This document shows, in pieces, positions 5,065 through 45,405 of a DNA stretch of 64,000 bases. This DNA is from Progne subis subis. Its lineage: Eukaryota; Chordata; Aves; Passeriformes; Hirundinidae. The translations under genes and the position numbers were made by a program. The stretch covers positions 5,216,501 to 5,280,500 of the forward strand of contig JAKJHU010000024.1 in the NCBI GenBank assembly GCA_022316685.1, written 5' to 3'. The notes beneath the pieces were generated by a model that made no database searches, was not told where the DNA came from, and saw only the letters and a list, made by a program, of their open reading frames with translations. Positions within the stretch are counted from its first letter, which is position 1. The number at the start of each line of letters is the position of its first letter.

Positions 5065-8000
5065 AGAAATTTGATAAACTCATTCCTAAATAGTTCTCTT
5101 TATTGCTATTATAAAAGCATAGAAATTTTCAGAGAAATCTTTTTCTATTAGCCCCATCTATTATGTAGACACTTCTGATGTCAAAAGATCATGTGCCACA
5201 TTTATATCAACGCATGTTTTCCAGTGATAGGGTCAAAAGTATATAGCACCTATGTGGTCCCACTTCTTTCATTTTTGTTAAGAGTGTTTCATTTATTATG
5301 TTGCACATGCACTCTCAAACATTTATCCAGATGTAGGAAATATGACAGATTTCAGTTTTCTCTGACATTTATAGGAAAACACTGGTAGAAACTACAAAGA
5401 GGAAAAGTTCTTACCACTTGACTGCCGCCTGAATAAGGTGATTGCTGAAAACAAACAAACAAATTTATAGAGGTGCTCCTAGCCAATGGTTTTGAACACT
5501 TTTTTTTTCCTGTTATCAACAAGATTTTAATAGCTTAATCCACAGCATGGTTCTTTGTTGTTCAAGTAGAAGGCTGAACTAATATTAATACAGAATGTTC
5601 TCTTCAGACCACATCATCCCCAAATTTCCCTAGCCACCACCCAGGTTCTTTTACTATCATATCTTTTATACTATCATATTTACTATGAAAAGAAGATCAA
5701 AGTGCTGTGATGAAAGTATTCTTACCGGTTTCCCAGAGTAAGTGCTTCCTGAGCCAGAGCCACCCTGTGAAATAATGATGAACCATTTAATTTTGTGAAC
5801 AGCGTCCACAGAGCACACAGCAATCTTGAAAATGCCCTGGATGTTAGCGGCTCTGACAGTGATTTTGATTTTGCTATTTTCACTGCACTTTCCCCATCTA
5901 TTTTAATTGGATTGTCTCAAATAAGCACAGCTATGCCCTTTTTATTGCATGAAGAGTTTCAGAGGAATGGGCCAAAGCAATGTGTCTTGTTTGAACTACT
6001 AAGTTGGAAACTGAAACGATTACCCTGGTATTTAAATACATCATTCTTATTAGAATGACAAAAGCATCTTCCTATGAGTAAATAACAGAGTATATCAAAA
6101 CTCTGCTATGGGAGGAGTAAATGGTACCTCATCCTAGAGGTTCAAGTTTGAACAAAATATTCCAATTTTTATTGGTAATTTTTCTCATACATTTACCATT
6201 GTAACATAATTTAAATTTTTGCCCTCATTGTTGTTACCTATCTTAAAACCTAATATTCCCATTTCTAATTTGGTTGTGGAATACTGAAAGAACAATGTCC
6301 TTACTGGCTTTCCTTGATGACTGCCTCCTGAGAAAGAGGAACCCTGAAAAAAGATACCTGTTTTTGACTCTAAGTCTATTTGTGCGTAAACATTCTTGCT
6401 ATCTGGAATTAAAGACCACAGAGGAATGAACACTGTTTTATTGTCATCCAAAAATCCCAGGCAAAACCTCATCTGAAATACAAATATTTAACACCTTTCT
6501 GTTATGGCTGGACAATTTAACACATAATTCTCAAGAAAAAAGAACCAGTTTATTGTTGTGTTTAACATATGGAATGGAAAAAATAATAAGATCCAATTAA
6601 ACAATAGTTCTCCTGGTATCAGTCTATGGTTACATTTGGGGGAAAAAAAAAGACACCACCAACAAAAAAAGGCAAATGATAAGAGGCCTTTAGCCTACAG
6701 CCCTTATGTAAAGAAAACTCTAATAAAAAAGGTAGCTGGAAAAAGTGAGTACAGAAAAATTAGATGTTCTGAAAACATCTTATTCAGTTTTCTGGTAAAG
6801 TGGCTCTGCTTCTTTGTATGACATTGCCAACAGGAAATGATACAAGCATTAAGTCTTTAAGAAATGCCGTCAAATAGGTACAGAAAATGTCTAACCATTA
6901 GGATTCATGTATTAGAAAACATAACATTTATGGCCAGTTTTTGAAAACAAGAACATCTTTTTCTATAAGAGATAAGCTAAAACATTTGTATCAACTGCCA
7001 TTGAATGGCAAGAGCGAGGCCCAGATTACATAATAAAAAGAGTAGTCTGCAATGGTAGAAAATTATGCACAGTTAAATGGCAACTGTTATTTCCTTTGAA
7101 AAGAATGTTTTCTTCAAAGCAAGACAGAAATACTTAAGACAAAATCAATGAAAAACTGAGCTCTGAGCACAAAGTTTATGATTATTATGAACTTAAACAG
7201 AAATAGCTGTTCAGAAGTTCCTTACATGCACACACACACAAATCCAATGGCCTCATCCTGTGATTACTAGAAGTTCAGCTACATAGTAAAGTGCTGTCTC
7301 AAAACTGTGTGAAAATAAATATTGTGTTTGCATTTGTTGAGAATAGCCCAGAAAAGTAAATAATTTGACACTCTTTGTATATTAAAGTAATTCTCAGAAA
7401 ACTGTCTAGGCCATGACTAACCAGATATATGTTTTATTAACAGGTGTATAGGAAAATAGAAAGGTATATTTGAATGCTTTGTACTTACTGGTTTACCATG
7501 TTGTTTGCCTCCAGAGGGATATGAGCCCTGTAAGAAGCCAATCAAACTTGTATTAATTGAATTAAAAATCTTCTATCTCTGTCTTGAGACAATTTCTGCC
7601 GTACTTAGGACAAGCTTATTTGGGTGTTCTTTGAACAAAAAAAGGCAAATTGGGTGCCTAAAATTTACACTCTGTACTACACACCTCAACAATGGCAATT
7701 TGAATCACAGTTGTAATGAAAAAGCAGTGTTGTAATGAAATACAGCCTGGCAACTATAGTATGTTCAAAGGAATATTTTACACCGAGCAGTAACTCATTG
7801 TAATGAAATCTTTTCTTCACTTTACTGAAATTACTTCAATCCTTATTACCTCCACTGATTAAACTTAGTAAAATAGCCAAATTAATGTATGTGTCAGCAT
7901 CAAGTAACTGACCTGATCTAGAAAGTTGTTAGGAAAGAGTTAGAAGTGATGGGATGGAAAGAGAATACTCACCTGCCCACCATATTGGCTGCTTCCTGAG

Positions 8001-11000
8001 GGATAAGATCCCTATTAAAAAAAAAAAAAAAAAAAATCACAGAAAATCAACATCAGTTACTTTTTGTTTTTCTGTGCAGAATGAAACATCACAGGACTTT
8101 TCATAGGAGACCTCAGTCATAATCTGGAAAGTATATTAGTCTAAAAAGATGTAGTGAGACACTTCTCACTTAATGCCTCTAGTATTTTTGCCCAGTAGAC
8201 TGGGTAAACAGTCACAAACACCTGCTGAGGTTGTTCTGTTACATAAATAAATGGATCATGCAGCTCTATTCAAGAGGAAAAAAAAAAAATCGACTTTATT
8301 TGTGATTGTCTCCTATGTCAGACATGTTTAGAGAGTATCTGTATTATTGTAAAAACATTGTTAATATTACCAAATAGGTAGTTTAGGAAAAAGAATTGAT
8401 TTGCAGCTGTTAAGAATCCTCTCCATTCTACATGAGATTTTCTTTTTAATAGAGTGATACTGAACTCCAATGGTTACCAGTGGAGTAAAAGAAATTAATT
8501 TTTTTAGTATGGTAGGGTGAGACATTGCAAACACAGTAATACTAATGAAAAATAAGCTCCATCTTATGAGTTAGTTATCCATTTCATCTCTCAGCTATTT
8601 GCAACAGTAACATTTCTGATCAGTGGAGTCTGCATAAGGTCCACACTTAACAGGAAGTCTTGAGTTGAAGCTGAAGAGGAGAGTAGTGTTATTGTGTGCA
8701 ACACACCAGAATTTATATTTTGAAAGCAGTATCTATTGGATTATTCTGTACCAAATTTTCCAAGTATTTAATGTAAATATAAAAAGGGTTCATTAAAATA
8801 TTCTTTACATGGAAATTGTTTGTGCTACTCCATTTTGAGTAGACTCCAGCTACTGACAGTCGCTGTTTTCAAATATTTATGAGGAGTAAAATGACCCAAA
8901 AAACCAATAATTTGCAAGTAGAAAGATCTTGAAAACAAAGAAAATTTGCTTGCCTGTCCACCATACTGATTGCTTCCAGGATATGAACCCTGTAAAAAGA
9001 ATGCAGAATTTTTAGAAATAATTTTTAATAGCATCAAAATTTTTAAATGGGAAAAAAAAAAATCCTGGACCTCATATAAACAATACTCATGACACTGATT
9101 AACTGGAAGAACTTTACACATTACTAATGCAGTGGCAAATGACTGATTACCCACTCATCCTCTTGGTGCTTTATGCAGTGAGATGAACCCTGTGAATGAT
9201 TCTTCAGTAGTTTTTTAAGGTAAAAAAGTTTCTTTAACTACCAACTAAAACCTTGGCTCTTGTGTGTAGAAGGACAAACTGCCTACCTGTCCACCATGGT
9301 AGTTGGATCCTGCAAACGAGCCCTGCGTTCAACAGAAACAGCAATGTTTACTCTGTATTAGCTTCCGTGTCACGGAGTTCATATTGCAATGATCAAGGCA
9401 TTTACACTGATTCATCTTGATTTATATGTCAAGTAATATATACATGTGTATATATATATAAAATGTGGATATAAGTGAGTATTGTTATTATTGTTATTAT
9501 TATATAATTTCTATTTATAGAAATCCTAATTTAGATTTTTTTTCAACACTTTTGATTCTCAGGATCAGCATATATGCCATGGGCTTTATACTTGGGCATG
9601 TCGTTTTGCTTGATTACACAGACCAATAAAGAGAAGTAGTGATCCAAGCAATTGTGACTGTACTGAAAAAAACAGGTAGCTGAACCCTCCTTCAAAAGTA
9701 AATTAACTTTATCTCAGCAAAACAGTGTGGGGGATTTTGTGTGTTTGGGGTTTTTGGGGTGTTTTTCAGGAATTTACAAAGAAATAGAAAAGATACTAAC
9801 TGGACAGAAAACTGGAAATAGCTTTAACTTTTCCAAATGTGTTTCTCTGCTCCATTCTGAAAGCATTTGGAGTCAAGATTTTAATTTAAGTTTCACTAGT
9901 TCAATCATAGCGTTAATAAATATCACAAGAGCAAAGTCCAAAACCCAGCAGGCACACTATGGATATTTGGGAAACAGATCCTTAGAAAAGACCCTGGCCT
10001 CTCTTACAAACTGAATAACTCGTTTTGAATAGTTGCAAGTCACTTAATATTTCAGCCTTAGCAGATTCAAAATTGCTCATTTTAGCATAATGTGGAAAAA
10101 GCTTTCAGTCATACATAGAACTTCACAGACAGAATTATTTCAAGAAATGTAGTTTCTTGGGAATTTTCTAGTATGTGTACATACTATGAAAAATACATAA
10201 AGACAATACTTACTGAACCTCCACCGGGGCACACACACCCACCCTGTACAAAACACAACCAAACTTACTTTCCTGGGTCTGTGTTTGGAATAGGCCTCTG
10301 AATTAGTAAATCAAACTCACATTCCGATTTTCTAAGAAAATGGACTATAAGACACTGCTCATCAACTTACAAAGTTCCATTCTAAAAGGCAGTTTCTTTA
10401 TCTCTCCCCTGCTCTTTGAGGCTAGCTGTGCACTTACTAATCAAATTTTTAAATAGAATCTTCTAACTTCTCATTTAAAATTTACAGTAAAAACCTACTC
10501 ACAAAAGGATAAGTAAAAAAAAATTGAGGAATAATACAGTTTTTGTTTTGTTTGGTTTTTGTTTGTTTGCTTTTTTGTTTGTTTTTTCTCTTGAGGAGAC
10601 CAGAGCATCAAGCCTATCAGAATTCAAGAAGCATTTGGACAATGCTCTTAGGCACATGGTGTCATTTTTGGGGTGTCCTGCACAGGCCCAGGGGTTGGAC
10701 TCGATGATCCTGATGGATCCTTCTAACTCAGGGTACTCTATGATCCTATGGATACATACACTGCTCTTTAGATGACTTCCAGTGGAGGCCTATTAGGTAA
10801 CTTCTACTCTGATAAAACTTAGTGAGAGGTGACCAGGGGGTCATTGTTCAGTGTCTCACTTTCCACATTCAGTCTGGATGAAATGTGTGAAGGGAAACAG
10901 TTCTTGTGAAGGAAAGTTACTCGAAGCAATCTGTGAGTATGTGACTCTAGCAGAGCTGAACAGTAGAGAGAAAGAAAAGCATACCTGCCCACCAGACTGT

Positions 11001-13895
11001 CTGACTCCTGAAGAAAAGCCCTGGAAGAAATGAGAACTTAGTTACTTCTGTGTTACTGAATAATATTCTCTCTTGTTCTCTGTGGTTGTCTGACTTTCAA
11101 ATTGCTTCTATTTAAACGTTACACAAAAAATTGGCTTCTTAAACCATGATCTGTTGAAGAAACATTTCCATGCAGTGTCACAGGCCCCTGTACCGTTTGC
11201 TCTTAACATGATCTGATATACCAGACACACTCATACTTAGCAATCCTCCTTCAGTCTGGCCTAAAGCTATTCTATCTTAGAATGTTCCTTTTTTGCAAAA
11301 AAACCTGGTCTGTTTCCGTGATGAACTGTGTACCCAAACTGAAAATACCATGAAAGTAGAAGTTTTACCTGTCCACTATACTGGCTGCTTCCCGGAGAAG
11401 CTATACCCTAAAGAAATGAAAAAGCATTTATATTTGTTGTACATTCTATAACTTATGACCTGTCACAGAAAAAACACACTTTTATTTGTCTTCCTTGGAT
11501 TTAAGTGCCACAGGGACATGAACATTTACTTTATAACCATACTGAAATCCACTGAAAGCCTTTACAGTGGCTGCTGTTTAAACAGAGCAGTGAGGTCTGA
11601 ATCAAAGTCAGCTTCAGGCAGGTGTGAGTTGTGCTGCTGCCCTGGACTGTGTGCTCACAGCAGCCTTCCGTGCTTTGCTTATGTGAGTGGGCTGACACTG
11701 CACAAAGTCAGATATTCCTCTATTCTGCCTAAACACTGTTTCACTGTAAGACAGCCCTTTAAAAAAATATTCTGATTTTCACACACACACACACAAAAAG
11801 GTGAACAAAAACAACCCATAAACAGAAAAACAATTGTTACCTGTCCTCCATAATGGCTGCCACCTGGGAAAGATGGACCCTGTAGCAAAGGTGCCAATTG
11901 TTTCTCAAATCAAAAAGCCTTTTAAAGAACTTTTTAAAGAAACACTAGTTTTTTCCTCTGTTGCACAATGAAAAATTACAGGAAGATAAACACTCAGCCT
12001 ATTGCTTAAATGCGTCACTCCATATTAGAGGCTAGACCTCCTGGCAGCACTAGGAACTCCATCTGTCATCTTTCATTTCACAGGGGCATGAGGAGTCTTA
12101 ATAACTCCTCACCTTCTCCTGTGCTGCTTTTCAGATATCAACTCTGATACTGCATTTTGCTGAATGAAATGAGGTAGAGGGGGAATGAATCTGCTTCCAG
12201 CTAATCAGCTAATCCTTACTGTTAGAACTAAGAAACCTTGACAGCGCCAGGGCAGGTTGAAGGGTAGAAAAAAGACAGAGCTGCATTTAATACAACAGAA
12301 GCAGTGGTATATTTCTTCAGATCATATATCTTTAGATACCTATCTGTTATCAGATAAACAGTTTTCACAAAGTACTTTTTCAGTCAATATGAAAGTACCA
12401 AGTTTTGATGTAGAAACTATGTGTTAGAATAACAACTACACAGGATGAGATTCTCACCTGTCCTCCGTACTGGCTGCCTCCTGAAGAAGGTGAACCCTGA
12501 ACAAAAAAGAATTGAATGATCTCAGTATCCATGTCACAGAACTCCTTTAAACCATTCTTTGTACGAAGGAGGAGTACCCAGTTTCCTTCACTCCAGAACT
12601 GTAAGTGGACTGAACCACTGTCCCAAAATGAGTGAGGCTCATTTGCATTTACCATGTTGCATCAGAAAATCCATCTTAAAAACTCTTCTGCCTATTTAGC
12701 ATCACATACATTTATAACCATTATATACTTGACAACAAATTAGATAAAAAATGGACAGAAAGCCCCAAACCAACCCCCAACCTCCTTAAAATGCGCTTTT
12801 ACTGAGAGAACTACTGAGTCTGTTCCATAAACTTGTAAGCGCTCCAGGGGAAGAATATTCACCTGTCCACCATATTGGCTGCCTCCTGAGGAAGGTGAAC
12901 CCTGAAAATAAACAAAAAAATGGAAACTGAAATCTTTTTACACCTATTTCATAGCCTCATAGAATCATTTTGTGAGGCTTTAAAAATTCTGTTTAGCTTC
13001 ATAAAGTACTGATTTATTTCAGAGAGACATGATATATAGTCCTGCACATTTCAGGAGTCAATCAAGTCAACAATGTATTTCACATTCTGCTTTTTCTTAG
13101 TCTTAGATAATGATCTACATCTGAACTTTTTTTTTTTTTTTAAATTACAGTAGAATCAGAACACTACAGAGAAATATTTACTGAATATATTTTAGATTAA
13201 ATTAAAGCTAAGATAGACAGTCAGGTGGACAATAAATAAACTACAAAAATGGGGACTATTAATGCTTACTTGTCCACCATACTGGCTGCCTCCATAAGAA
13301 GATGACTCCTGGAAAAAAAATTGATAATTTGTTATTTCTGGATATCTAATTTGTGGAAAGAAGTGGCAAAGACATCTATATTTTGTTATTTGAGTGTTTG
13401 TGTGTAATTATCCCAGAATATACCTGGTTTTTTTTTTTTTTTTGCTTTCCTTGATTTCACAATATTACTACAGATTATAGATCACTGTCAATTTTCTTGA
13501 TATATTAAATTGAGATCCTTGAGACAAATATTTATAAATATATATATATACACACACACATATATTAAAAGTAAGAGCTTACATGTCCTCCATACTGGCT
13601 AGCTCCAGAGGAATACGAATCCTGGAAAGAATAGAAGATAAGTGAATGACCTGTAGTATAATTTCCTTAAATCAAAACATGACTCTGCTAGGACAACAGG
13701 AGCAAGAGAGCAAGATAAGAGTGAAGACAGGTAAACAGGACTTTCAGAATGTTTTAATAACTGGAATTTAAGTTGAGCAAAGTAAGTTAGTAGCAAGGGT
13801 AGGAGGCAAAGACATAGTGCTTTGTTTGTGTGACGTGTTGGGAAGGTTAAAGTGGCATTCTTTCCAGTTCTTTCTCTACTCATTTCTGGAGAATG

Positions 13896-13933
<38 letters not shown>

Positions 13934-16900
13934 AAGCTGAATGCTGGGCCAGAACTAGTTGTAAAATACTGGCTACCTAACTAGTTGTAAAATACTGGCT
14001 ACCTAACAGGACTCTGAAAACCAAACTAAGAAACACTACTGAAACCTCATACAACAAGAGGTCTCTTTAAAGAGGGAGGGTTGGATTTGTTTTTCTTCAT
14101 AAAGGAATTAGGTCCAATAAAAATATAAAATTGTGCAGTTTGATTTTTTCTTTTCCCAGACATATGTTTTGTGAGCTTCATTTTGCAAGTTTCCCAAAGC
14201 AAGGGCAGTATTTGCTAAAAACTCCATTGTTATATTTTTAGTCCATATCTACTCAATGATGAATTTAATTTCTTTTTACCCAGTTCCCATATAAAAATGG
14301 AATTTAATTGAGTGAATGAATTAACAATCATTTTCAGAAGTGGCAAACTGGCTCTCCTTTTGGAATGAATGCTTACTTGGCTGTTGTACTGGCTGCCTCC
14401 AGAAGATGTGCCCTGGGGAAAAAAGCAAACACCAAACCTATCAGTTATTTTGCTCTAAAAGAAATATTTTGAAGCAAAACTTCTTGAAAGAAAGCAGTAC
14501 ATAAATACTAATACTAAACTTTCTTGCCATTAATGATCTAAGAAGAATCAATCACATGAATCCATGTCCTTGGGGGATTTTTTTTTTTAAATAACTCCAA
14601 GGAAGCAAATGGAATTGACTCCCAAAGTAAAAATTTATACTGGTATCTACTTGTGTTTGTGATAACATCTTCCATTGTAAGACTTCTCTTACTCTTTTCA
14701 AATGGAAAGAGAAACTGGGACCACTGCATGAATGTCCTGTGTGCATTTTTTAGTTGCAATTAAAAAGAATGTCCTGTGTGTATTTTTAGTTGTAACTAAA
14801 GGAGATTATTTTCACAAGTGTATGACTTCTATTAGGCACTGACTCTTTATCCTCTCTAGCCATTCTATTGATAAAGCAAACCGAGGACACACTTAAAAGC
14901 TGATCAACATTGCTTACATTTGCAGAGGAATCACTTCTGACTAAAGTAGGGGATCCACCCTAGAAAGGAAAAAAAAGAAAAGAAAAATTAGCCTTTGTCT
15001 TTGGTCATAAACTAGAAATGAGACAAAACCTTAGAATGTCTGTTCAATGCCATTTCAAAGGAAGAATATCACAGCCTGAAATTAATTGCACTTACACTTC
15101 ACTTACTTTTATTAATTTGCCAAGAGAGAAAATAGCCTTTTTTTGGCCCAGAATCATAAATCATGAAGAATCATATTGCATCTACCTATAACTCATTGTC
15201 TAAGAAATAAGGGTATTACCCAAGGTGCAGGAATGTCCTTTACATGCTACATATTGATCGACCACGTATGATTTCCTTTGGAAAGCAGGGATTACCCTAC
15301 TTCATAGTCCTTAAATAATTTCATGTGGACTTAAAAGCACAAGTGAGAAGTTTCAGGTTTTGGTTTTGCTTCTGCTTTAAATTTTTAAACAATGGGTTTT
15401 GATACAAATCTTTATGATTGGCACTTTTGTAGACTTGATTTTATTTTAGCTTTCTTTCATGATAGGACTTTTGTCAACCAATTCTGCTATTTAATGCAAT
15501 CTTTTTTGAGGTATTTTGCAAAGAGATACACATCTCTGTACATACTGTGTGGCAACTGACATCACTGTTCAGAAATGCAATTCACTGCCAACTTTGGAGC
15601 TTCCTGGCTTTTATCAGAAATAATGTGGCCAGAAAGCAGCATAAGGGAAGTGATTGTCCCCTTACACTGAGGGGGTCTGATAAGGCTGCCACCTTGAGTC
15701 CTGGATTCACTTTTGGATCCCTCACTACAAGGTGGACATTGGGATTGTGTCCAAAAATGGACCTGGAACTGGTGAAGGGTCAGGAGTACAAGCTTTGTCA
15801 GGGAGCAGCTGAAGGTGCTGGGCTTGTTTAGTCTGGACAAAAGGAGGCTCAGGGGGACCCTGAGGGGTGGTCCCATCTTTCAAGTAACAAGCAATAGAAC
15901 AAGAGGAAATTGCCTCAATCTGCTCCAGGGGAGCCTTAGTTTGTATTTTAGGAAACTATTTCTTCACTGAAAGGGTTATCAAGCACTGGAGATGTTTCTG
16001 GGGAAGGGGCTGAATCACCATGCCCAGAGGTATTTAAAAGACATGTACATGTGGCACTTAGGGACGTGGTTTAGTGGTGACCTTGGCAATGCTGAGTTAA
16101 TGCTTGGACTCAAGGCATTTTCCAACTTAAATGATTCAATGATTCTGTAACACTGAATCTTGGCATAATGAGAAATAACTCCTACCATATCAGAACCATC
16201 TAAGTCACTAAAGGAGCAATGAATGTAAAATTAAGAGTACATCCAAATAAGTAACTTGGAAATAAATAGGATCTCACATAATTTTCCAGTTCAACAGTTT
16301 AGTTAAAGAAAATGCATAATGAACAAATAACACTTACAGAACTTCCCCCAGAACAGTCACATCCAGCCTGCAAAGAATGCAGAAAGTATTTAAGATACCA
16401 AGAGCACAGGACTGAAATGGATTCGAGTTACAACTCAAATTACTTCTACCCTCCCTGGCATGCCAACCATAAAGCTACCCTTTAGCTGCCCAGCTTCTAG
16501 AACTGAGTCTATTTCATCCTGTGCAACTATTTCTGCACCTACTGCTCCGATGGGGCAACGAAATGGTAATTCTTATATCTTCAAATTTTCTTACCTACAA
16601 TTTTTACCTTAAAAACATTACTCATCAAAAGGATGAGTAAAAAATTATGAGTAGATTTTTTTTTTTCTAAACAGGCCAGAGCACCTGGAGTACACGCAGT
16701 ACTGTTTCATGTTACAGATGATACAGAAACAGGTAATTTCTATGTGATAAAACTGAGAGGTGGCCAGGAGTTCACCATTCAGTGTCTCACTTTCCACTTT
16801 CAATAAGCATGAAACTTGTTTAGCAGCAAAGAAGGTACAGAAGCTGAGATACACATGCCAAGCAGTTACTGCTGGCTACTCTGGCTTGCAGGATGTCCAA

Positions 16901-31900: not shown

Positions 31901-34900
31901 AATTTCAGTTGCATCTTAAAATAAGAGAAGAAAGACCATTTACCTGGTGGCAGGGATTGCTATCATAGGAGTAACCCTGTCAAAAACCAAACAAACAAAA
32001 AGGTAAATGCCATTTCTCTTGCAAAGTAGTTTCCTTAAAATCTCCTATGTGAGAATTAGTGTAACAAACCTCAACATAGAACTTTACAGAGAGTGAGTTT
32101 AATTTTATTTAACCCTTTAAGTGTGTGGCTTTACCCTCTGTCACTCTCACATCCCCATACAAACATCAAGACACTTTCACAGAGATGATCAAATGAATAC
32201 TTGTGAGCCACATGGAAAGAGGTAGGTTAGTAATTGATGTCTCTCTGTATCACCCTAGTTCCTCTTGATTGGTAAAGATGAGTTGCTGGTGGGCTTTTTT
32301 GGAAGTAACTATTACTGTTTGGGTGACCACCTATCTAAATGTGACCATCAATCTCTTGCTAGATTCATCACCATGGATTTTAGGCCAGGCTTCTGCTCAG
32401 AGCCATTTATTTGCCTGGGTATATTTTGTGATAACAGCACACAGAAAGAGTTCTACCCTGTTTGTCACCTTCCCATGATTACAGCATGGGTCTTCTCTTG
32501 ATAAGTCAACTTGTGACACCCCTTAGCAGAAATCACCCATTCTTCAGTGTTTATCATTTTCATTGCTGGTAACTATGTTCTTGTTGCACTGCTCCTTGTG
32601 ATGCTTTCAGATGCATTTCCATTCCCACCTAACTTACATCAACCCTAATATTTCTGCTAAAAATATTTGCTTTTATACTTTCATTCTGGTTGCTTTCCTC
32701 AATATATTTATTCAAACATAGGTTTACTATTGGTCTTATCCATTATGCTTTCACCTGTAATCTCATCATCAAAGACATTGTCTTTACATCATTTCAGACA
32801 TACAAGCTGAAATAAAACCAGGATGAAAACTACTGATTTAATTCTTATTCCATTTGAGCCACTTTCCAACCCTCTTGTTTTCTAGAGAAAATAAAGGGAA
32901 CAACATCCAAAAATTCCCAAGCAAAGATTTTATATACTTATTGAGTAGACAGATTGTTTGCCTTCCATGTGCAACTCTAAATGGGACCAGCCACTTCATA
33001 TTCATTACAACAGACAATAGTATCAGACTTTCTTGCCCTCTGTGCTAGCTAAGTTCATGTAACAATGAAAACAATAGATTTCAAACTAACAAACATTGTA
33101 AAAATTACTAAAAACATATCACTATTGCAAGGAAAGCTGGGTCTAGTTTTCAAATAGTTTGGAGAAAAAGTCTTACTTGTCCACAACCACTGCTGCCACC
33201 ATAAGAAACAGATCCACCCTGCTTGGAAAAAAATATAAAAGAATAACTCATGATCCAAATATTCCTATTCTCTATTTCAAACACAGATATGAATTTTCAA
33301 GGGCTTTAGATGTGAGGCTGCTTCAAACTCAACTATATCCTACTGTGAATTATCTGGTAAAGTACTGAGTATGTTGAATATTAAAGTGTGTCAAAAAGCT
33401 GACACCTGCATGCACTCCCTTCTACAGGGAAAAGTGCTGCTTCAGTGAACCAATTGTTGCTAAAGCCACATGAAAAAAAGTTCACAAGACATAATTCTAA
33501 TGAGTTATTTACTATATTATTTCAAGAAAGAAACCACAGCATTCTCAATACATATATGGGAAAGTCTATATATGCTGTATATTGACCAATGAAAATGTAT
33601 AATGACTGACTGACAATTACCTGACCATAGGAACTGCCTCCTTGAGGCTGGGAGCCCTGTAAGAAAGGCAAGGTGTCATTTGTAAACAGCTGCATAAGCG
33701 TAGTCCCAGCTCAGCAGCAGCAGAACCACAGAATACCAGAAGGAAAAGCCCATTTCCATTAAAGGGTCCTCTCTACTATGCTATTTTTTCCTTCAGGGTG
33801 TTTCAGGGGTAAAAACCAAATCAAGGATTGCTCAGAAACACTGAGAAGGCAAAAACCACTCATACCCCAAAGCCCAGTTACAGGACAGGCTCCTACAGAA
33901 AAGCTCAACACATCTCAGCAACAAGGTCTCACCTGGCCATAGGACTGGCTGCCTTGGGAACCCTTTAAATAAAGAGAAGATAATTAACACCTTGACAAGG
34001 AGGCTTCTTTAGAGAGCAGGATGTTTATGGAAATAACAGCTGCATGCAGGATTTCCCTAAAGGTTCTTCCTGTGCCAAAGGACACAGAACAGTATGCTAA
34101 CAGCTGAGCATCTGTGCAGCGCATTGCCCTATTCTCAGCAGAAGCCACAGCCCAAATTGAGGCACAGACTGCTAAGGGAAAGATCACTCTCAAAAGTCTG
34201 CCAGTCACAGAGAGATCAGGGGAGAACTTTCTACAGAACAGCCACTTTGCTTACCTGGCCATAGGAGCTGCTGCTGCCTGAGAAACTTGGTCCACCCTAA
34301 GACAAGGACATCATTTGGTTACTTCCCTTTCAGTAAGGGATCCAGCCTGCATTAGCAACAGCAAGCAACTACATCCCAAAGCCATGCAGCGCAGTATGTA
34401 GAGCAGCCATCTTCTGGCTCTCACAAGGATGCTGTGTTGATGATTTCACACACTGGGATTGCAGATCAATGAGTAGCACAAGCATAAGTGCTGAGTGAGA
34501 ACAGACACTTGCAGAGAAAATTGTCCTTTGAAGTTCAAATTCTGAGGGACTGCTAAGTGCCTTTACAGTGCTTCATTTCTGAAATGCTCTATTCTGACTG
34601 ATGCTTACCTGGCCATAGGAACTGCCACCTTGAGGCTGGTACCCCTGTATGAAATTAATGATTGATTCACAGTTACTGTATTTGTGAAGCAGATGCCTCT
34701 CTAATGTCTATTATTGGGGGTAGAAAACAGAATAAAAGAATGTACAGACTCTACTGCTTAACTAGAGTTATTTTGATATTTTTTATTCTGGATATGTGAT
34801 CACAATGTTTACTGAATGACTATCATAGAGTAGATTGCCATCTGTCTCAGACAGTAACTTATAAGAGTTTTCCAGGAAGGGACACAAAAAATTTTTATTA

Positions 34901-37900
34901 TGTGTATTTTTCCTTCTGTTTTTCAGTCAATGGGCTTAGATGGCTAATACTGCATACTAGGTGAATATTGATTTAATACAGTCATATTTTTCATTGGCTC
35001 CAGTTGCAAAATTCCCTTCCTCTGGAAGAAAATTAGGTTGGAAAATAGTTTTTAAAAATTAGGAAATAATCTTAGAAAAAATACAGGTTCATAAACTGGA
35101 AACAAACCAATGCAATTCAAAGTGGCAGGTTGAATAAATTAGCCAAGGATAACCATACTTAAAAAGTAAATATCTCAGTAATATAAAGTTACTGTGGTTA
35201 TAATTTGTTGTTGCAATGTGATTTCCATATAATCTCAAAAAAGTGTAGTTGTTTCACATGCATGCAAACCTGTGCCCAGCTGCCTGGGAGAGTTATGAAG
35301 ACAAGGATTACCAAAAAGTATTTGAAGCATCCTGTCTATCTTTGCTATCTGATATAGAGATCCTGGCAAAATTCATAGCTATCATAGGGCTGCTTTAATT
35401 TACATAAAAACTGTGAAGGGAGGTAGACATTCATTTGTTGCAGGTTCCAAGACCAACTTTTCCTTCAGCTGAGAACCTGGGCCCATATTCTTTAGTGTCC
35501 CAACACTACTTTACTGCTGAGAGCAGAGGAGGCAGCAAGAACTGACTATAAATTTGTACTGTGTCATCAACTGAAATGGGAACTGCATCAAATAGACTTT
35601 TTCTACCATTAATTAATAAAGTTCCAAACCTATGGTAAAGGTAAGATAGCAGAGGAAATCTAGGATTCCTGTATCTATCCATAAAAAACACAACGGTCCC
35701 ATTCCCAACAAAATATTTTAAATGGATTCAGAGATAAATTGGTTAAAAATTCAACACAAATTGAAAACAGAATATTTTAAAATCTTCTAACTTTTCAGGG
35801 CAATGGTACATGACTTTCTCTAGTGTTCTATTCTGACTGACAATTACCTGACCATAGGAACTGCCTCCTTGAGGCTGGGAGCCCTGTAAAAAAGGCAAGG
35901 TGTCATTTGTAAACAGCTGCGTAAGTGTAGTCCCAGCTCAGCAGCAGCAGAACCACAGAATACCAGAAGGAAAAGCCCATTTCCATTAAAGGGTCCTCTC
36001 TACTATGCTATTTTTTCCTTCAGGGTGTTTCAGGGGTAAAAACCAAATCAAGGATTGCTCAGAAACACTGAGAAGGCAAAAACCACCCATACCCCAAAGC
36101 CCAGTTACAGGACAGGCTCCTACAGAAAAGCTCAACACATCTCAGCAACAAGGTCTCACCTGGCCATAGGACTGGCTGCCTTGGGAACCCTTTAAATAAA
36201 GAGAAGATAATTAACACCTTGACAAGGAGGCTTCTTTAGAGAGCAGGATGTTTATGGAAATAACAGCTGCATGCAGGATTTCCCTAAAGGTTCTTCCTGT
36301 GCCAAAGGACACAGAACAGTATGCTAACAGCTGAGCATCTGTGCAGCGCATTGCCCTATTCTCAGCAGAAGCCACAGCCCAAATTGAGGCACAGACTGCT
36401 AAGGGAAAGATCACTCTCAAAAGTCTGCCAGTCACAGAGAGATCAGGGGAGAACTTTCTACAGAACAGCCACTTTGCTTACCTGGCCATAGGAGCTGCTG
36501 CTGCCTGAGAAACTTGGTCCACCCTAAGACAAGGACATCATTTGGTTACCTCCCTTTCAGTAAGGGATCCAGCCTGCATTAGCAACAGCAAGCAACTACA
36601 TCCCAAAGCCATGCAGCGCAGTATGTAGAGCAGCCATCTTCTGGCTCTCACAAGGATGCTGTGTTGATGATTTCACACACTGGGATTGCAGATCAATGAG
36701 TAGCACAAGCATAAGTGCTGAGTGAGAACAGACACTTGCAGAGAAAATTGTCCTTTGAAGTTCAAATTCTGAGGGACTGCTAAGTGCCTTTACAGTGCTT
36801 CATTTCTGAAATGCTCTATTCTGACTGATGCTTACCTGGCCATAGGAACTGCCACCTTGAGGTCTGTAGGCCTGTACGGAAGGTAAGATATTTGTAAACA
36901 AAGCTGTATTGTCTTAGTACAGCAGCAACAGACAAGTCCATTTCCTCTTAAAGTTCCTCTGTACTATGTTCTTTTTTCCATCACGGTATTTCAGTGGTAC
37001 AAACCAAAATCAAGGACCACTCAGAAACATCAAGAAGGTAAAAAACTGCCCATGCCCTGAAGCCCATTTAGAAGACAGGCTCCTAGAGAAAAGCGCAATA
37101 AACATTTCAGCAACAAGGTCTCACCTGGCCATAGGACTGGCTGCCTTGGGAACCCTTTAAATAATGAGAAGATAATTAACACCTTGACAAGGAGGCTACT
37201 TTAGAGAGCAGGTTGTTTATGGAAATAGACTCCATGGGGATTTCTCAAAAAGCACAGAGGAGATAGAGCAGTCTAGTAACAGCCCTGCAATAGATTGTCC
37301 TGTTCTCATGAGAAGCCATGACTGCCAACCTTGTGCACATTGAATATTCATGCTGTTGAATACTGACCTCCCTCTGGCCCTGATCCCTAAAAGTCATACC
37401 TACCTTTTTGAGACAGTTTTCTGGTTGCATGTAGTGCTATAGAGAATATTGCCAGACTTTTGCATACTTTTGCATCCCTCCTACCCCCAGCCCTCAAGAG
37501 AAGGAAGACCTAAAGAGCCTTCATACTTGGGTTCATACTATGAATATTCTCAAGTTTTAATTTGCAATAATTTATGGTGACACCGGGTGAGTATTTTCTA
37601 AATTCCCCCACTTTTTTCCACACAAGTAGCTTTATCTTCATAGCTTTAAGCAATGCTGGAAGACATTGCACATAGTTCCACGATTATGATTTTTCTTTAT
37701 TCTTGATCTGGCTCAGCAACTACCCTTTACAACTTTTGCAATTTGAGATCTAATATGCATGGGCTCTGAATTTATCAGTATAGGGCTGGTGGTGTAATGA
37801 GCCTAGAATTGCTGCCTCTCAGGGCCATGACCTTTCTGCTCTGAGTGGAATACACTTATTTCACATCAACCCATCACACATGGAAATGCATGTGTGAGCA

Positions 37901-40900
37901 TCACAAAAAAAAAATCACAAAAAAAAAAATCAGTTGAACACCAATATCAGGTGGCATTTTCATGAGCAAAAGCCAGGAAAATAGAAATACCTGCACCTGT
38001 GAAATCCATTTTTAAATGCAGAAAATAATTTATTCCTAAGTTGTGCTAGCCCTGTTTATATGTCCCCCTGTTTAGGGGACATCTACAGGAATATTTAGAA
38101 TACTTTTTAAGTTTACTTACCTGCATATAAGTACTGCTGCTGGTTTGCTGTTTTTGTCCACTCTACACAGGAACCAAAAAAGGTTATTTATTTTCAAGAG
38201 GAGTTGCTTATGCACTAAGCCATTTCAAGAAGCACCTCTGTCCTTCTATCTACTAGACAGTTTGAAAGCCACAAAGAATTCATCACACCTTTTTTTACTT
38301 TATGCCATCCTCAATGTGTTATAAAATGTATATAAAAATCCAACACAAATAAAGTGTTAAAAGCATTTATATATATCTTGATATGATTTTCTTAATGAAA
38401 ATTATTTGTATAATAATATATCTTTGTGTCATATTGTAATATTTGCAGTGAGTTAAAATAATTCTGCCTTTCAAATGTACCTTACAAATTACCTTAAACT
38501 CCTAACTATTTGTATTCACGGTATGACTGATTTTTTTTTATTAATAAGCACAACAAACTTTTGACAAAGGCTTTGCCAAAACAAGAATTGAAAAATACAG
38601 TTACAATTTAACATAAGAAAAAGCCACTGCAAAAAATATTTTGATTTCCACAAAATTTTTGGATTATGAGAATAAAGTATTTTTTATATTTACACATTGA
38701 AAACAGTTAATCTGTGAAATCAAAACACTGTACATTTAAAGTCAGGAATAAAATAACAAGGAAGTCTTATTTCTTCCTTTGCCAGCATTCATAAATAGTC
38801 ATGGAAGAAAAGAATGCTGTACATTTTGAAAACAATGGTTTTGGAAAGAGAAATTTCAGCTGGAGTAACCTGCTACTGATCTCTCAGTGAAAGTGAGAAT
38901 TTGTTGTTGTAGTCTGATGGACTGGCATCTAAAGGACTGACTAGTCATTAAGAGTGGGATGGATGCTAAAATGGCAAAGAAGCCAGAAAAATATGTCTGA
39001 ATGATATTCCTAATACGTTATAAGCATGCTCTTAATGAGATTAGATTGCAATCAACTTTCCAAGTGCCTGATTATCAAGAAGCAACATTACAAATACAAC
39101 AGTTCACCTAAGCATTAACAGCAGGATTTTAAAAATATAATTCTGGACTGGGTGTTTCCATTTAAAAATGGGCTGTTTAAATGAAAATGGAACAGTGCAG
39201 GTTGCAATTTATGTTTGATTTGATAGTGACTAACATTCAAGCTTTAGTTCTAGATTTCCCTCCTCCTTCCTGAGCAGACCAAGATGGTCAAATTTTGACA
39301 ATTTTGAGAGCACAACAGAATTTGTATACAGAGGTTTTCAAATTTTTTAAGTGTAAAAAACAGCTGAGATAATCTTTATTCATCCACCAGCTAATACATC
39401 CCCTTTGCTGTAGTCACAGAAATGCCCTATGCCACCACTGCAGTTTGTGGACATCTAAGATATCTCTAAGTTATCCAGACTTATTGGTTCCCTAAGAGAC
39501 AGGAATTATTACTTAGTTTACTAAGACAAATCTTCATTTAAAGCTCAAGTATAATGGAGAAAAAAGGAGTCTACCTGTACTATGATCCTTGTGGCAGAGC
39601 TTCCCAAACTCTGAAAAGAAAAATCCAGAAACAAATAAACAAAATGTAGCAACTTGATTGACTTGTTTAATGCAATGCACTTACACAGAAAATTCTAAGT
39701 TGAACTATTTAGCTTGTGAGAATAAAGAGAAAGGCCGTATGCATGATGTGTGTACCAGCTCTCCACACCCAGCATTAAGCTAGTTTACTCTCAGTTCTGA
39801 AGGTCTGGGGAGGCACACTGGCCCTACTAAGTAATTTTCTACTCTTACATCTTCTGTGGAGAGCAGCAGAGCACAGGTTTTGTGCACCACCTTTCTGAAC
39901 CACCAGTCAGCTGGGCTTTTCCAAGTGTGGGGAGGGAAGCTGAGACGTCATCCATCACCTTTCCAACCTGTCCCACTGTCACCTGCACTGCATATACGTC
40001 GACATATACAGATCCACTTCCTCATCCAGGCAATTTTTGCCAAATTCTGGGGCATGAGGGAAATATAGAAGAGTAGCACACACCATCCTGAGACTACTGG
40101 TTTGATCCTGTAAGAACTATTATGATACTATAGGAATCACATGCTTACCTGAGGGAAGGTGTGACGCTGCAAAGAAACAGGAAAATCTCTCATTATTTTG
40201 CACAGGGGCTTGCCCAAACAGAACATTGCAGCAGAGAAAGGGAAAAAGGGCCCTTATATTTCAGATGCACTACATAGTGGAATGTGAAAGAATTATGTAA
40301 AAAGGATGGTATAGAATAAATGCATCTCAAATTTATTCAGGTTAGAGCAACATTTTCTGTCAGAAGTTAAACCGCTATAAAATATTACATTATAAAAGCT
40401 CACTTCAAGCACCTGAAGGCTAAACTTAGTTCCAAGTAAGCAGAGTGGAAATGTAATAATTTAAAAATGAGAACGGAAGTGAACTTACAGAATAAAATTG
40501 CAATAGAAACAGAAAATCAAAACTATTCAGGAACACATGCATACATGGAGAGACCTGGTGTCAGCAGCTAATCCATTGTCTCTGCAAGCATTAACAGCAA
40601 TCACAGAACCACGAGGTTTGTACCTATCCTATAACATGCCTTCCCTGAAGGCAACTATACACACAGGGTAAATCCTGCCTGCCAAAATATTTCTGAAATG
40701 TTTCTCCAGGAATATTTCTGAAAAATTAAAAATGTAGATATTTGAAAGCTTTTTGGGTCAAAATTATTTGGAGAGAAAATGTGTATTGTAGAGAAAAACA
40801 GCTTACCACAGGTGGAAAAGGGTTGCTGTTGGCAACGACCACAACCTATGGAGAGACCAGAGGGAGCTGTTTACTCACCACAGAGATTATCTAAATTGTT

Positions 40901-43900
40901 AAATATGTCAGAAAAATGAAGAATATTAAAATTTTTAATTTACAAATTCTGATAGTAATGCTATGGAAGATCCCTTCTATATTTTTTTTTTAAATTAAAA
41001 AAATTAACGTACATTACCGAGCAAAGAAATATATATTTGTACATAGTTTGCACAGGAGTATAAACCGTTAGAAGATTTGCCCCAAACCACATAATGATTC
41101 AGTTGTAGAGGCAGAAGCAAGATTTCATTTCTTGTACCATATCTACTGGTCTGTACTGTGTGCCCTTTTTGATCCTCAGCTTTCCACCCCAAACTAGAAC
41201 ATCCATTTATTTTGTCTTTATGCAGTATTATGCTAAAAAAAAGACTTGCTATTGAGTTCTTTCAAAAAAAACCTTAAGCCAAATGCAATAATTTTATCTT
41301 CTGCTGTGTTAATGTTTTGTCATTAGAAGCTTTCCCCACCTCTAAGAACCAAATTAAATCAAATAATAGTAATCAATCTGGGTTAAAACCTTGAAGGGTC
41401 TTGACTGAAATAACAGAAGTCATGCTAAATTATAACTGTAAGAATTATTTTCCCTTTGAAGAGGAGTGCTTACCTTCTTATTGGAATCTGAACTGCTTGA
41501 AGGGACAGACTGTAAAGAATACAGAATTCATTTGTTGCTTAGGTAAATTAACTACAGCACTATTCTCCACAAGAATATTACAGCTATCATGATACCCCTG
41601 AAGTACCAAAAAAAGTAAGAGTCTGAAGAAAAATACAAATGTATTGGCAGTCAATAAAGGAACAACTGCAATAAATCAACTGGTTTAAATTTTTTTAAAA
41701 GCCCACTTATTTTGCTAGTTTTACAGAGTACTGTTTAAAACCTGCAAGTTTCATCAAATTGGAAGTTTGTAAGAAAACTAATCTATTGGTAGGAAAAAAA
41801 TATTAAGCTCTTCTACCTTCATTCAAAAAAATCAAGCCAAATTCCAGAACCCATCTGCTCAGTTTAAAAAACCTACCATTGTAATTGAATCTGGGAAAAC
41901 TGGGATATATATGTCAAAACAAGATAAATTATTTCAATGAAGCATAAAATAATGTGCAGTGATGTGTTGCATTTCATCAAACAATAAGTAGAATTGCATA
42001 AGCAAAATAAAAAAAAAAACCCACCTTTTAATTCTTAGTAAAGATCAAAGAAAGCACTGACTTTGGAAAAGCATAATAAAAGTAACTGGTGTCTATTTAT
42101 AGAATAAATTTAATTGATTTTTGGTAGAAGTAGGGATATTGCAACAAACACCAAATCTAATGAAGTTATTTCCAGATATGATCATTACTAAATCATTTGA
42201 AGAGAGTTTGCTTTTATCCCCTTCCACAAATTTAATTATTGTTTGGTAAATCTGGGCGTAACTGCTTAGCTTTTAAATACCTTAGGAGCCTAGAAACATG
42301 TTGGAAAACACAGTTACCTGGCCATAAGTAAGACCACTGCCGGATAAGGATGCAGTCTGAAATAAAAATATAAATCTGGTATTTATTTATGTAATAATTT
42401 TCTAATGAACAAATTGTTTTCACGTGAAAATGAAATAAATGAGATAGACAATAGAAATTTCTCTAGTAATTAAAGAATTAATATGCAAAAATTGTAAAAA
42501 AATCCCCAATAATATTCCACAGTACGCAATATCCAAAGAAAATAATTTTGCCTGATGGAAAGTATTATGCAGTAAGAATTCTGAAATTTTAGTAGGGAAA
42601 CCAATTAAGAGTTTCTAATAGGTGATATTATGTATCACCTATGTGTACATACACACCTTAAAACATAAATGATTAGACTTTGAGGAACTGGCAGTGTAAA
42701 ACCTTTTAATTTTGGGTTGTAATCTCAGAATAACACCTCAAGCTAACACTATTTTCCTGAATATATTTAGGAAGACTTCAATAGCTCTACAGAAGAGAAT
42801 CAAATGCAATTTTCAACAAGAAGAAGAGTTAAGAAGCATAGTAGGAGACAATCAGTAAAAAAAACCTATAACCAGCTTACATCTCTGCAGGCTTGTTGGC
42901 TATATGCAGAAGCAGCACCTCCCTAAGACAAAAAATAAACCAGTTATTTCTCATCTGTATTCACTATTTGTAAAAGAGTCTCCCACATGAATATTCATTA
43001 AATAACACAATTGAAAGCTAGGAGTTACTATGATTATAGTCATGCTGGGGACAAAAAGGAAAATGTAAAAATAGTGCTTACAGGGCCACATCCACTCTTG
43101 CTTATTGTGTAGACGACTCCACCCTGAAATAAAAGCAGAAGTCAATTATTTCCATATAAAAAACTTAAATGGGCAAGACAGAAAAAAACCCAATGCCATG
43201 CTGTTTATGGCATGAAACTGTGCAGTTGACAATGTGTATGTACAAGCAAGGGACAAGCAAGTAAAGAGGTTACCAGTTCACTGGCACTGCCTGTAATAAT
43301 TCTAATTTAGTGTGAGACATTAGTCACCATCTGTATTTCATATAACTTTCATCAGCTTTGTCACTGGTCATGAAATCTTTCAAAATTTTACTGAATGGCT
43401 CATATTTTATAAAAAAATTAGTGACTTCAAGTAGTTATATGACAAGATGAGAAACTCAACTCTTAGAAAAGAAAATGTACTACATATTAAAAAAATACAA
43501 GGAAGAAAACCAGGTTTTAACATAATTAGCAAAATAATTTGTATTTCTCTGTATCTGGTAATTCATTACAAGCAGTAAAGACTGAAGAAATGGAATATTA
43601 CCAGATAACTCACTAATAAATATAACCACCAGTAAGAAATATGTCCTTGATAAGCTCTGTTCAAGAAACTGGAGACATATCTTCTAAGAGTTAAAGAGAA
43701 AATAGGTGTATTAATAGCACTGGAGATAATCAACTAAAAACCAAGTATACATTGCTGTGATTAATGAAGCGAAAGTGGTGACAATGCAGACATGCCTAGC
43801 ACAGAAGTTTTAAAAGACTAACTAGACAGTGATATCCCCAAATTTTCAACTGCAGATATAGTCTGCTGTTCAAAGCAATACAGACGTTAAATTGGAGCAA

Positions 43901-45357
43901 GCTATTGAGTTCAACAGAGTGGAGGCAGTTGAACTTAGCCCAAGTACAAGCATACTGTTGGCTGGATGAATACCTCTGCCACTCTGGGTTAACTAGCAGA
44001 GAAGATATTTCAGTAGAGTATTAAATCACCTCACTATGTAGTTACAGAATTTTAGTCATTCAGAGTTACTGAAGGAAAACTACAAATGCTGGAAATTTAG
44101 GTCTCATACCTGACTGCCTGAATAGCTGCTCTGAGAGGAACCAGAAGGTCCAACCTGTAAAGAAACCAGATTGGTATTTATTATCTTGTTAAAAAATTAT
44201 TTTTACATAAGTGATTTTCAGGAAAGAAAGTTCTACTTGGTGGGAAAAGGAAGAACCTGAGAAGTAGTTCTCTATGACTTAATTCCACAAACTGATACTA
44301 TTAAAATTATTCCTGAGATGTTTCAAGACAAATAATCAAAACTGTGCCAATCCAGCTGTTACAAGTAACATAATTCTGCTGCTTGCATCCTTTTTTATCT
44401 GAACTCATACGCTTGATATCCATCATTGAGGAGATCTACACCATCACAATCATTAAAAAGTAGATGAAATATACTAATATGACTATGTAATCATAAGCAT
44501 ATTTGCTGTTAAAAAGCAAAGAAGGAAAAGAGGCTTCTTCACTGAGCTGCCAGTAATAGTTTTCAAAGGAAAAAAAAATCAAATAGCTATATTTTATATC
44601 TAGATCATGATTTTCAAAAGGCAAGGTCTCAGAGCTGTTGAAATATGTGATCTTGAACAGCAAGAAAACACTAAGAATAAAGAGCAAAAAGAGAAAAATT
44701 AAAACTTCTCTTACAGATCTACTTCAGATTAGAAGAGTGAATCTACAGAAAAAAATGATAACAAGGCTGACAGTTTTGGATTTCTAATCAACAAAGATAA
44801 ACTAACAAAAAGAAAATTAAATCATGTGACAAGGGCGATAAAGACATTTCTAGAAGCAACTTTTGCCTAGGCCTTGAGATCATGGGCAGTTAGCATGTCA
44901 ATGTCTTTGGAGAAAGAATATTTACCATGATGCATCGGCCTGTTGAGTAAGTCCCTCCACGCTGCAAGAGAATACAGGTTCCAGTTACTGTTTATTGACT
45001 GGTGCAAAAATATCAAATTACTTTAAACAGGAAATCAACTGAATTCACATTGATTGTCTGAGTGAGGAAATAAAGTGTTTCCTGGCTGACAATATATTAC
45101 ACATTTTAACAATGTCATTTGCAAACTGATGTTAACTAATTAAAAATACATTCAAAACTGAAAACAAAAAACGAAAGCATAAATGACATCTTGCTAGGAA
45201 AGTAATTTGAATGGTACAATAGAATCTTCATGCTACAAGCATGAAACAGCTGGACCAGTAGGAGAAGAATTCTAAAACTGAGGTAACTGAAAATTGGGAA
45301 ATTGAAGAAAAATTGCTCTTACCTTGTTACATTCTAATTCTATCAAAAGCTGTGGGG

Positions 45358-45405
<48 letters not shown>

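Follow-up and report, generated by a model that had tools for sequence, protein, structure and literature searches.

The stretch of DNA considered here (the window) comprises 64,000 nucleotides (nt) of Progne subis subis (NCBI GenBank assembly GCA_022316685.1, contig JAKJHU010000024.1, forward-strand positions 5,216,501 to 5,280,500), and from its letters it probably encodes a bird gene in which a Reeler domain is followed by a long array of micro-exons. This gene lies on the minus strand, which the original prediction had left unspecified. The model that we have assembled, a prediction spliced from the genomic sequence, runs from 49864 to 4930 and joins 69 coding exons, namely four for the N-terminus and the Reeler domain, 64 micro-exons and one terminal exon (Table 1), into a coding sequence of 3033 nt including the stop. 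Its product of 1010 residues falls short of the “giant” protein announced in the original prediction, a description which was overstated.

The 64 assembled micro-exons lie between 45349 and 5415, measure 18-48 nt, with 39 nt as the commonest length (23 of the 64) and a mean of 37.5 nt, and are all in phase 0. Consecutive small symmetric exons thus make up most of the predicted coding sequence (64 of the 69 exons and 2400 of the 3033 nt), as in a micro-exon gene, and because all of them are symmetric, any one could be skipped without loss of the frame, as had been proposed. The introns of the model range from 99 to 2338 nt around a median of 433 nt (9 of the 68 are below 200 nt), and the one that follows the micro-exon at 8954 is of the GC-AG type (donor gcaagc). 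The original prediction had counted 68 micro-exons within 5415..45349, read in one open frame after a Reeler domain: the array and the continuous frame, with the Reeler domain first, are borne out by a model that reads through all of its 69 exons, and the exact number is not, with 64 assembled and a few more possible. The Reeler domain is indeed present, but its four exons fall outside that interval, and the terminal coding exon, absent from the earlier list, was found here. We would expect standard annotation procedures to break or truncate a gene of this kind.

An initial scan looked through the entire window for phase-0 AG...GT segments of small size with a high content of Gly, Ser, Tyr and Gln, and returned 117 candidates on the minus strand versus 13 on the plus strand, overlaps counted. 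Scoring of splice sites and composition gave 43 non-overlapping exons at a strict setting, versus none on the opposite strand and none on the minus strand at 50-64 kilobases (kb), and 61 exons at a looser setting, versus none on the opposite strand (40.5 kb), one on the minus strand and none on the plus strand at 50-64 kb (13.8 kb each); the top control score of the looser setting, 8.9, was exceeded by 58 of these 61, all but those at 29223, 41474 and 40149. A search of the remaining introns yielded four candidates, versus three on the opposite strand and none on either strand at 50-64 kb, and two were kept: 8954-8989 (GC donor, score 27.5, above the top control) and 44926-44961, whose score of 6.3 is no better than the top control of that search (6.9). 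Altogether, 59 of the 64 micro-exons beat the best control score of their own scan. A length divisible by three, phase 0 and the absence of frame-0 stops were conditions of these splice-and-composition scans, so that openness and phase, including the count of 0 out of 64 micro-exons with a frame-0 stop, are no evidence on their own.

A further test, free of those conditions, took splice-site strength alone for segments of any length between 15 and 60 nt, under five settings. With the first of them, the gene strand (40.5 kb) gave 95 pairs of splice sites, in 67 of which the distance is a multiple of three; 64 of the 67 are open in phase 0, which confirms the phase-0 array that had been claimed. 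The opposite strand of the array stretch gave 17 pairs (6 divisible by three, 4 of them open in phase 0), the minus strand at 50-64 kb 7 pairs (4 and 3) and the plus strand there 4 pairs (2 and 1). Under the other four settings, the gene strand had lengths in multiples of three for 47 of 67, 37 of 46, 28 of 33 and 65 of 92 pairs. The binomial P is 0.52 for 6 of 17 and 1.5e-13 for 67 of 95, a value that is optimistic because some splice pairs overlap. A gene on the plus strand is ruled out by the strand counts of the initial and looser scans.

The few micro-exons that could be added come from these same introns. Another intron search found 10 phase-0 pairs, versus 8 on the opposite strand, and none was added to the model; the segments at 40807, 39575, 27361 and 26692 look the most exon-like and may be the extra four of the original prediction. 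Among these 10, the segment 21277-21300 (minus strand, 24 nt, phase 0, SSSFRKGE), left out though its score of 7.1 is above that of the kept 44926, and its duplicate 22235-22258 (minus strand, NSSFRKCK), with fair splice sites, are possible further 24-nt micro-exons, and the weak candidate 27073-27111 (score 3.6) was also left out. Rfam returned no family at its gathering score.

Upstream of the array, exons 1 to 4 are linked at junctions of phase 1, 0 and 2 in turn, exon 4 closing in phase 0. Their product matches the Pfam family Reeler (PF02014) along the full profile (1-131 of 131) with an E-value (E) of 2e-29 and 103.2 bits, above the curated cut-off of 21, and the open stretch with exon 2 only already gives E 6.8e-6. 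Among solved chains, the nearest to the Reeler part are three spondin-1 sequences (E 0.0056 to 0.0081), the next being an unrelated enzyme (E 0.14), while NCBIfam, searched with the first 255 residues, matched the choice-of-anchor V domain at 21.5 bits, short of the cut-off of 42. The N-terminus is hydrophobic, as expected of a signal peptide. A complete Reeler domain near the N-terminus is also what characterizes proteins of the FRRS1/REELD1 type, and a Reeler stretch of human FRRS1, in an approximate sequence, is 36% identical (47 of 131 columns). FRRS1 contains DOMON and cytochrome b561 parts as well; Pfam, searched with the whole 1010 residues at E 0.1, found no family besides Reeler, and thus no such part here, where a long micro-exon repeat rich in Gly, Ser, Gln and Tyr is added instead. 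As far as can be said, the Reeler domain is of a known kind and the array attached to it is new, and annotated orthologs may exist.

At the other end of the gene, the top acceptor between 5414 and 3600 is the one at 5028 (score 4.0), the next, at 4654 (3.7), opening three residues only. The likely terminal exon that it opens adds 32 residues before a stop. Small residues come first and a short polar spacer next, followed by a hydrophobic stretch of 17 (mean hydropathy 2.34) and five last residues. Of the 442 acceptors scoring at least 2 on both strands of the window, four open a tail of 25-60 residues with a hydropathy of at least 2.3 (5028, 33192 and the overlapping 28100 and 28076), a cut-off that was chosen after the tail had been seen. 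This tail looks like a glycosylphosphatidylinositol (GPI) signal or a short transmembrane helix; it shows the small-residue site, the spacer and the hydrophobic stretch of the GPI pattern, together with a putative N-terminal signal, but its five-residue end includes a lysine.

Between both ends, the repeat part extends over 800 residues, about 13 per micro-exon, and 71.8% of them are Gly, Ser, Gln or Tyr. It holds 67 Tyr and 13 Cys, 14 SYGQ and 25 [GS]Y[GS] motifs, only 19 Lys or Arg and 31 Asp or Glu, and an aromatic residue (Tyr or Phe) every 9.4 positions on average; for a 234-residue piece of it, a search of solved chains returned nothing at E 0.01. Exons start with Gly in 43 cases out of 64 and end with Gln in 46, both preferences being favoured by the exon scoring itself. 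The exon-terminal Gln codons are CAG in 40 cases and CAA in 6, versus 20 and 20 inside exons (P 0.0003), an excess that stems in part from the donor score, in which CAG is rewarded, and GGT accounts for 23 of the 43 first Gly codons versus 42 of 165 (P 0.0008). If the transcript exists, the Gln ends and Gly starts of the exons could show the splice consensus (CAG/GT, AG/G) shaping a protein, and the gene would offer a natural test of how the spliceosome handles, in one message, dozens of exons below the usual minimum size for exon definition of about 50 nt.

The sequence further indicates that the array has grown through the tandem duplication of units made up of introns and exons, the growth of a low-complexity protein being visible within one window. 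Two pairs of duplicated units stand out (Table 1), and older traces connect 10.8-13.9 kb with 16.7-18.9 kb. We selected 16 disjoint duplicate pairs of equal length, with an exon identity of at least 0.6 and a flank identity of at most 0.6, in which the pooled proportions of synonymous (pS) and nonsynonymous (pN) differences are 0.451 and 0.150 (pN/pS about 0.33), the corresponding distances dS and dN are 0.69 and 0.17, and the differences at the three codon positions amount to 31, 30 and 76 (third-position P 8.5e-8). Likewise, 12 core 39-nt exons (66 pairs), hand-picked by motif, share a mean identity of 70%, versus 32% and 30% in their ungapped flanks (20-60 bases upstream and 8-48 downstream), with 0.22, 0.23 and 0.45 differences per codon position. 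Because the differences in duplicate pairs are mostly synonymous, a substantial share of the array, at the least, has preserved its peptides since duplication. Three micro-exons spread along it (24989-25030, 16338-16367 and 10214-10243) carry a G-C-x-C motif; they may be ancient duplicates of each other, those at 16338 and 10214 being 67% identical, and motifs spaced in this way may provide recurring disulfide or metal sites in the chain.

Taken together, these data lead us to favour, with moderate confidence, a single functional minus-strand gene for a secreted protein tethered to the cell surface, made of a Reeler domain, a Gly/Ser/Gln/Tyr chain encoded by micro-exons and an anchor-like tail. 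The hydrophobic N-terminus would act as a signal peptide for secretion and the tail would hold the protein on the outer side of the cell, with the Reeler domain displayed on a disordered, flexible and tyrosine-studded chain that could associate with itself or with its surroundings. Since the micro-exons are symmetric, the length of this chain is adjustable without loss of frame: exon skipping and, over evolution, exon number might tune its length and stickiness. The product would then probably be a flexible cell-surface protein of splice-variable length.

Several points weigh against this functional, membrane-tethered protein. Five micro-exons are weak (45323, 44926, 41474, 40149 and 29223), and the strict and loose scores were learned from the array itself, with the controls scored identically. 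The signal peptide is called from hydropathy only, the cut-off for the tail followed its discovery, and the tail ends in SKWSI, five residues that include a lysine, which is less typical of GPI signals. As for selection, the 16 pairs were chosen, take in only 32 of the 64 exons, lack the third-position excess in 3 cases and have flank identities of 0.23 to 0.56, so that some introns remain partly alike; the core 39-nt set was also a choice of ours. When whole length classes are compared, pairs with a flank identity of at least 0.6 being excluded, the signal weakens in all 39-nt exons (251 pairs; 0.43, 0.45 and 0.57 differences per codon position) and in those of 42 nt (102 pairs; 0.54, 0.50 and 0.59), and there is no third-position excess in those of 36 nt (53 pairs; 0.62, 0.55 and 0.61) or 30 nt (25 pairs; 0.73, 0.69 and 0.62).

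A rather unlikely alternative keeps the gene as real and makes its product a soluble matrix protein that is secreted and has a structural or elastic role, in the manner of resilin, the tail being cleaved or confined to a minor isoform. The 13-residue repeats rich in Gly, Ser and Tyr, the recurring aromatic residues and the scarcity of charges would suit such a matrix, in which the tyrosines could cross-link, but the hydrophobic C-terminus contributed by the terminal exon speaks against it. Known repeat proteins offer partial parallels. Fibrillar collagen and the PEVK region of titin are repeat proteins built from many short in-frame exons, which in collagen begin with a Gly codon, the first codon of most micro-exons here as well; these are however shorter and have no Gly-X-Y period, and collagen was discarded because Gly is not every third residue of the translated exons. 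Elastin combines hydrophobic repeats of Val, Pro and Gly with Lys cross-link exons, and was also discarded, given the 9 Val, 9 Lys and 8 Leu among the 800 residues.

Quite unlikely, in our estimation, is a more ambitious proposal, where the gene would correspond, in a vertebrate, to the schistosome micro-exon genes, with a FUS-like self-associating extracellular chain put together combinatorially from the 64 or so interchangeable micro-exons and forming a surface condensate or elastic coat with tunable properties, and an exon number that varies between individuals through the recent duplications. Schistosome micro-exon genes encode secreted proteins in long runs of small symmetric exons, skipped in frame; similar runs of skippable exons are predicted by our model, whereas the Reeler domain and the tandem-duplicated Gly/Ser/Gln/Tyr repeats set this gene apart, and no kinship is implied. 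The SYGQ and [GS]Y[GS] motifs recall the low-complexity domains of FUS and EWS, from which the signal-peptide-like start and the Reeler domain differ in suggesting an extracellular location.

It is decidedly improbable that the live gene is short and limited to the Reeler part, much of the array being in decay or seldom spliced in and mostly skipped. In its favour, the coding share of the array stretch is just 6.0%, the splice sites are in part weak, with a summed score below 5 for three exons, and the 30- and 36-nt groups show no third-position excess; the pN/pS of the duplicate pairs and the 64 of 67 splice pairs that are open in phase 0, where openness was not required, speak against it. 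Lastly, chance or a non-coding tandem repeat containing AG...GT is exceedingly improbable: the array does hold tandem duplications, but chance is ruled out by the controls of the strict and loose scans, near-empty both on the opposite strand and beyond the gene, and by those of the condition-free scan, core exons are alike while their flanks are not, and the array continues the frame of a complete Reeler domain.

Table 1. Features of the predicted gene, in gene order, and duplicated units of the array (strict, strict splice and composition scan; loose, looser setting of the same; intron scan, search of the remaining introns).
Feature	Position	Strand	Content	Basis
Coding exon 1	49669..49864	-	ATG, signal-peptide-like start, Reeler start; ends phase 1	model; acceptor score 5.6
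Exon 2	47426..47562	-	Reeler; ends phase 0	model, profile match
Exon 3	47041..47132	-	Reeler; ends phase 2	model, profile match
Exon 4	46090..46198	-	Reeler end and linker; ends phase 0	model, profile match
Micro-exon 1	45323..45349	-	LLIELECNK	placed by eye
Micro-exon 2	44926..44961	-	RGGTYSTGRCIM	intron scan, weak
Micro-exon 3	44110..44154	-	VGPSGSSQSSYSGSQ	strict + loose
Micro-exon 4	43082..43123	-	GGVVYTISKSGCGP	loose
Micro-exon 5	42881..42922	-	GGAASAYSQQACRD	loose
Micro-exon 6	42318..42356	-	TASLSGSGLTYGQ	loose
Micro-exon 7	41474..41509	-	SVPSSSSDSNKK	loose, weak
Micro-exon 8	40149..40166	-	RHTFPQ	loose, weak
Micro-exon 9	38121..38162	-	SGQKQQTSSSTYMQ	strict + loose
Micro-exon 10	37125..37154	-	GSQGSQSYGQ	loose
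Micro-exon 11	36836..36871	-	AYRPQGGSSYGQ	strict + loose
Micro-exon 12	36482..36523	-	GGPSFSGSSSSYGQ	loose
Micro-exon 13	36160..36189	-	GSQGSQSYGQ	strict + loose
Micro-exon 14	35848..35883	-	GSQPQGGSSYGQ	strict + loose
Micro-exon 15	34609..34644	-	GYQPQGGSSYGQ	strict + loose
Micro-exon 16	34255..34296	-	GGPSFSGSSSSYGQ	loose
Micro-exon 17	33933..33962	-	GSQGSQSYGQ	strict + loose
Micro-exon 18	33621..33656	-	GSQPQGGSSYGQ	strict + loose
Micro-exon 19	33177..33218	-	GGSVSYGGSSGCGQ	loose; strict gives one extra codon
Micro-exon 20	31944..31976	-	GYSYDSNPCHQ	strict + loose
Micro-exon 21	30463..30483	-	GGSQGGQ	strict + loose
Micro-exon 22	30144..30182	-	GGSYSLLNYGGSQ	loose
Micro-exon 23	29986..30027	-	QSGSSSSQNYGDNQ	strict + loose
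Micro-exon 24	29770..29805	-	DGSYSQNYGGGQ	strict + loose
Micro-exon 25	29617..29646	-	GGSSSDTYYE	strict + loose
Micro-exon 26	29223..29270	-	DSQDSSYDNNPNACDD	loose, weak
Micro-exon 27	28597..28626	-	NDSTYNTNSQ	loose
Micro-exon 28	26446..26487	-	NASSPSNSSHSDMQ	strict + loose
Micro-exon 29	25525..25563	-	GGSFIATSGSSNQ	strict + loose
Micro-exon 30	24989..25030	-	GGCICPDGSSGHRQ	strict + loose
Micro-exon 31	22609..22650	-	GAPGSSYSTYSGNQ	strict + loose
Micro-exon 32	22468..22506	-	GGPFFYPGGSYGQ	loose
Micro-exon 33	22122..22163	-	GGPGSSHGSYSGNQ	strict + loose
Micro-exon 34	21984..22022	-	GGPFFYPGGSYGQ	strict + loose
Micro-exon 35	21606..21647	-	GAPGSSHSTYSGNQ	strict + loose
Micro-exon 36	21465..21503	-	GGPFFYPGGSYGQ	loose
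Micro-exon 37	21164..21205	-	GGPGSSHGSYSGNQ	strict + loose
Micro-exon 38	21026..21064	-	GGPFFYPGGSYGQ	strict + loose
Micro-exon 39	20853..20897	-	GGSSSYDGGSESYGQ	strict + loose
Micro-exon 40	20335..20376	-	GASSAYSGSETYGQ	strict + loose
Micro-exon 41	19692..19730	-	DSPSMGSSETEYS	loose
Micro-exon 42	18692..18730	-	DSSSPSGSRQSER	strict + loose
Micro-exon 43	17964..18002	-	DFYSPGGSQSGGH	strict + loose
Micro-exon 44	17673..17711	-	GSSSQSGSYSSGQ	strict + loose
Micro-exon 45	17367..17405	-	DSSSSGSSQYGGQ	strict + loose
Micro-exon 46	17054..17092	-	GSPSAGGSQSGGQ	loose
Micro-exon 47	16338..16367	-	AGCDCSGGSS	loose; duplicate pair with 10214
Micro-exon 48	14918..14959	-	GGSPTLVRSDSSAN	loose
Micro-exon 49	14377..14412	-	GTSSGGSQYNSQ	strict + loose
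Micro-exon 50	13583..13621	-	DSYSSGASQYGGH	strict + loose
Micro-exon 51	13270..13308	-	ESSSYGGSQYGGQ	strict + loose
Micro-exon 52	12863..12901	-	GSPSSGGSQYGGQ	strict + loose
Micro-exon 53	12458..12496	-	GSPSSGGSQYGGQ	strict + loose
Micro-exon 54	11841..11879	-	GPSFPGGSHYGGQ	strict + loose
Micro-exon 55	11369..11407	-	GIASPGSSQYSGQ	strict + loose
Micro-exon 56	10985..11020	-	GFSSGVRQSGGQ	strict + loose
Micro-exon 57	10214..10243	-	GGCVCPGGGS	loose; duplicate pair with 16338
Micro-exon 58	9287..9322	-	GSFAGSNYHGGQ	strict + loose
Micro-exon 59	8954..8989	-	GSYPGSNQYGGQ, then GC donor (gcaagc)	intron scan
Micro-exon 60	7973..8011	-	GSYPSGSSQYGGQ	strict + loose
Micro-exon 61	7489..7527	-	GSYPSGGKQHGKP	strict + loose
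Micro-exon 62	6305..6343	-	GSSFSGGSHQGKP	strict + loose
Micro-exon 63	5726..5764	-	GGSGSGSTYSGKP	strict + loose
Micro-exon 64	5415..5444	-	QSPYSGGSQV	strict + loose
Terminal coding exon	4930..5028	-	ends with stop	model, acceptor scan
Candidate polyadenylation signal	4560..4565	-	AATAAA, nearest past the stop; further ones downstream	
Duplicated unit	33606..34654	-	98.9% identical to 35833-36881; contains micro-exons 15-18	
Duplicated unit	35833..36881	-	partner of 33606-34654; contains micro-exons 11-14	
Duplicated unit	20970..21684	-	90.8% identical to 21928-22687	
Duplicated unit	21928..22687	-	partner of 20970-21684	

Other features of the window lie in the introns or around the gene. The intron before micro-exon 1 contains a tandem duplicate of a 58-base unit (45758-45876; two copies, 98% matches), and near it an A/T run of 43 bases (45358-45400). 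The open pieces at 53454-53818 on the minus strand, which we take to be the C-terminus of a CR1-type retrotransposon protein, had no match in Pfam (three pieces) or NCBIfam (two pieces), and a tblastn search with two proteins guessed as neighbours, LSM6 and SLC10A7, gave a best E of 1.6. Beyond the 3′ end of the gene, the segment 2901-3600 is CpG-rich (70.7% GC, CpG observed/expected 0.79) and may represent the promoter of an adjacent gene; its minus strand has a possible donor, GCGCAG/GTGGGA, which would fit leftward transcription.

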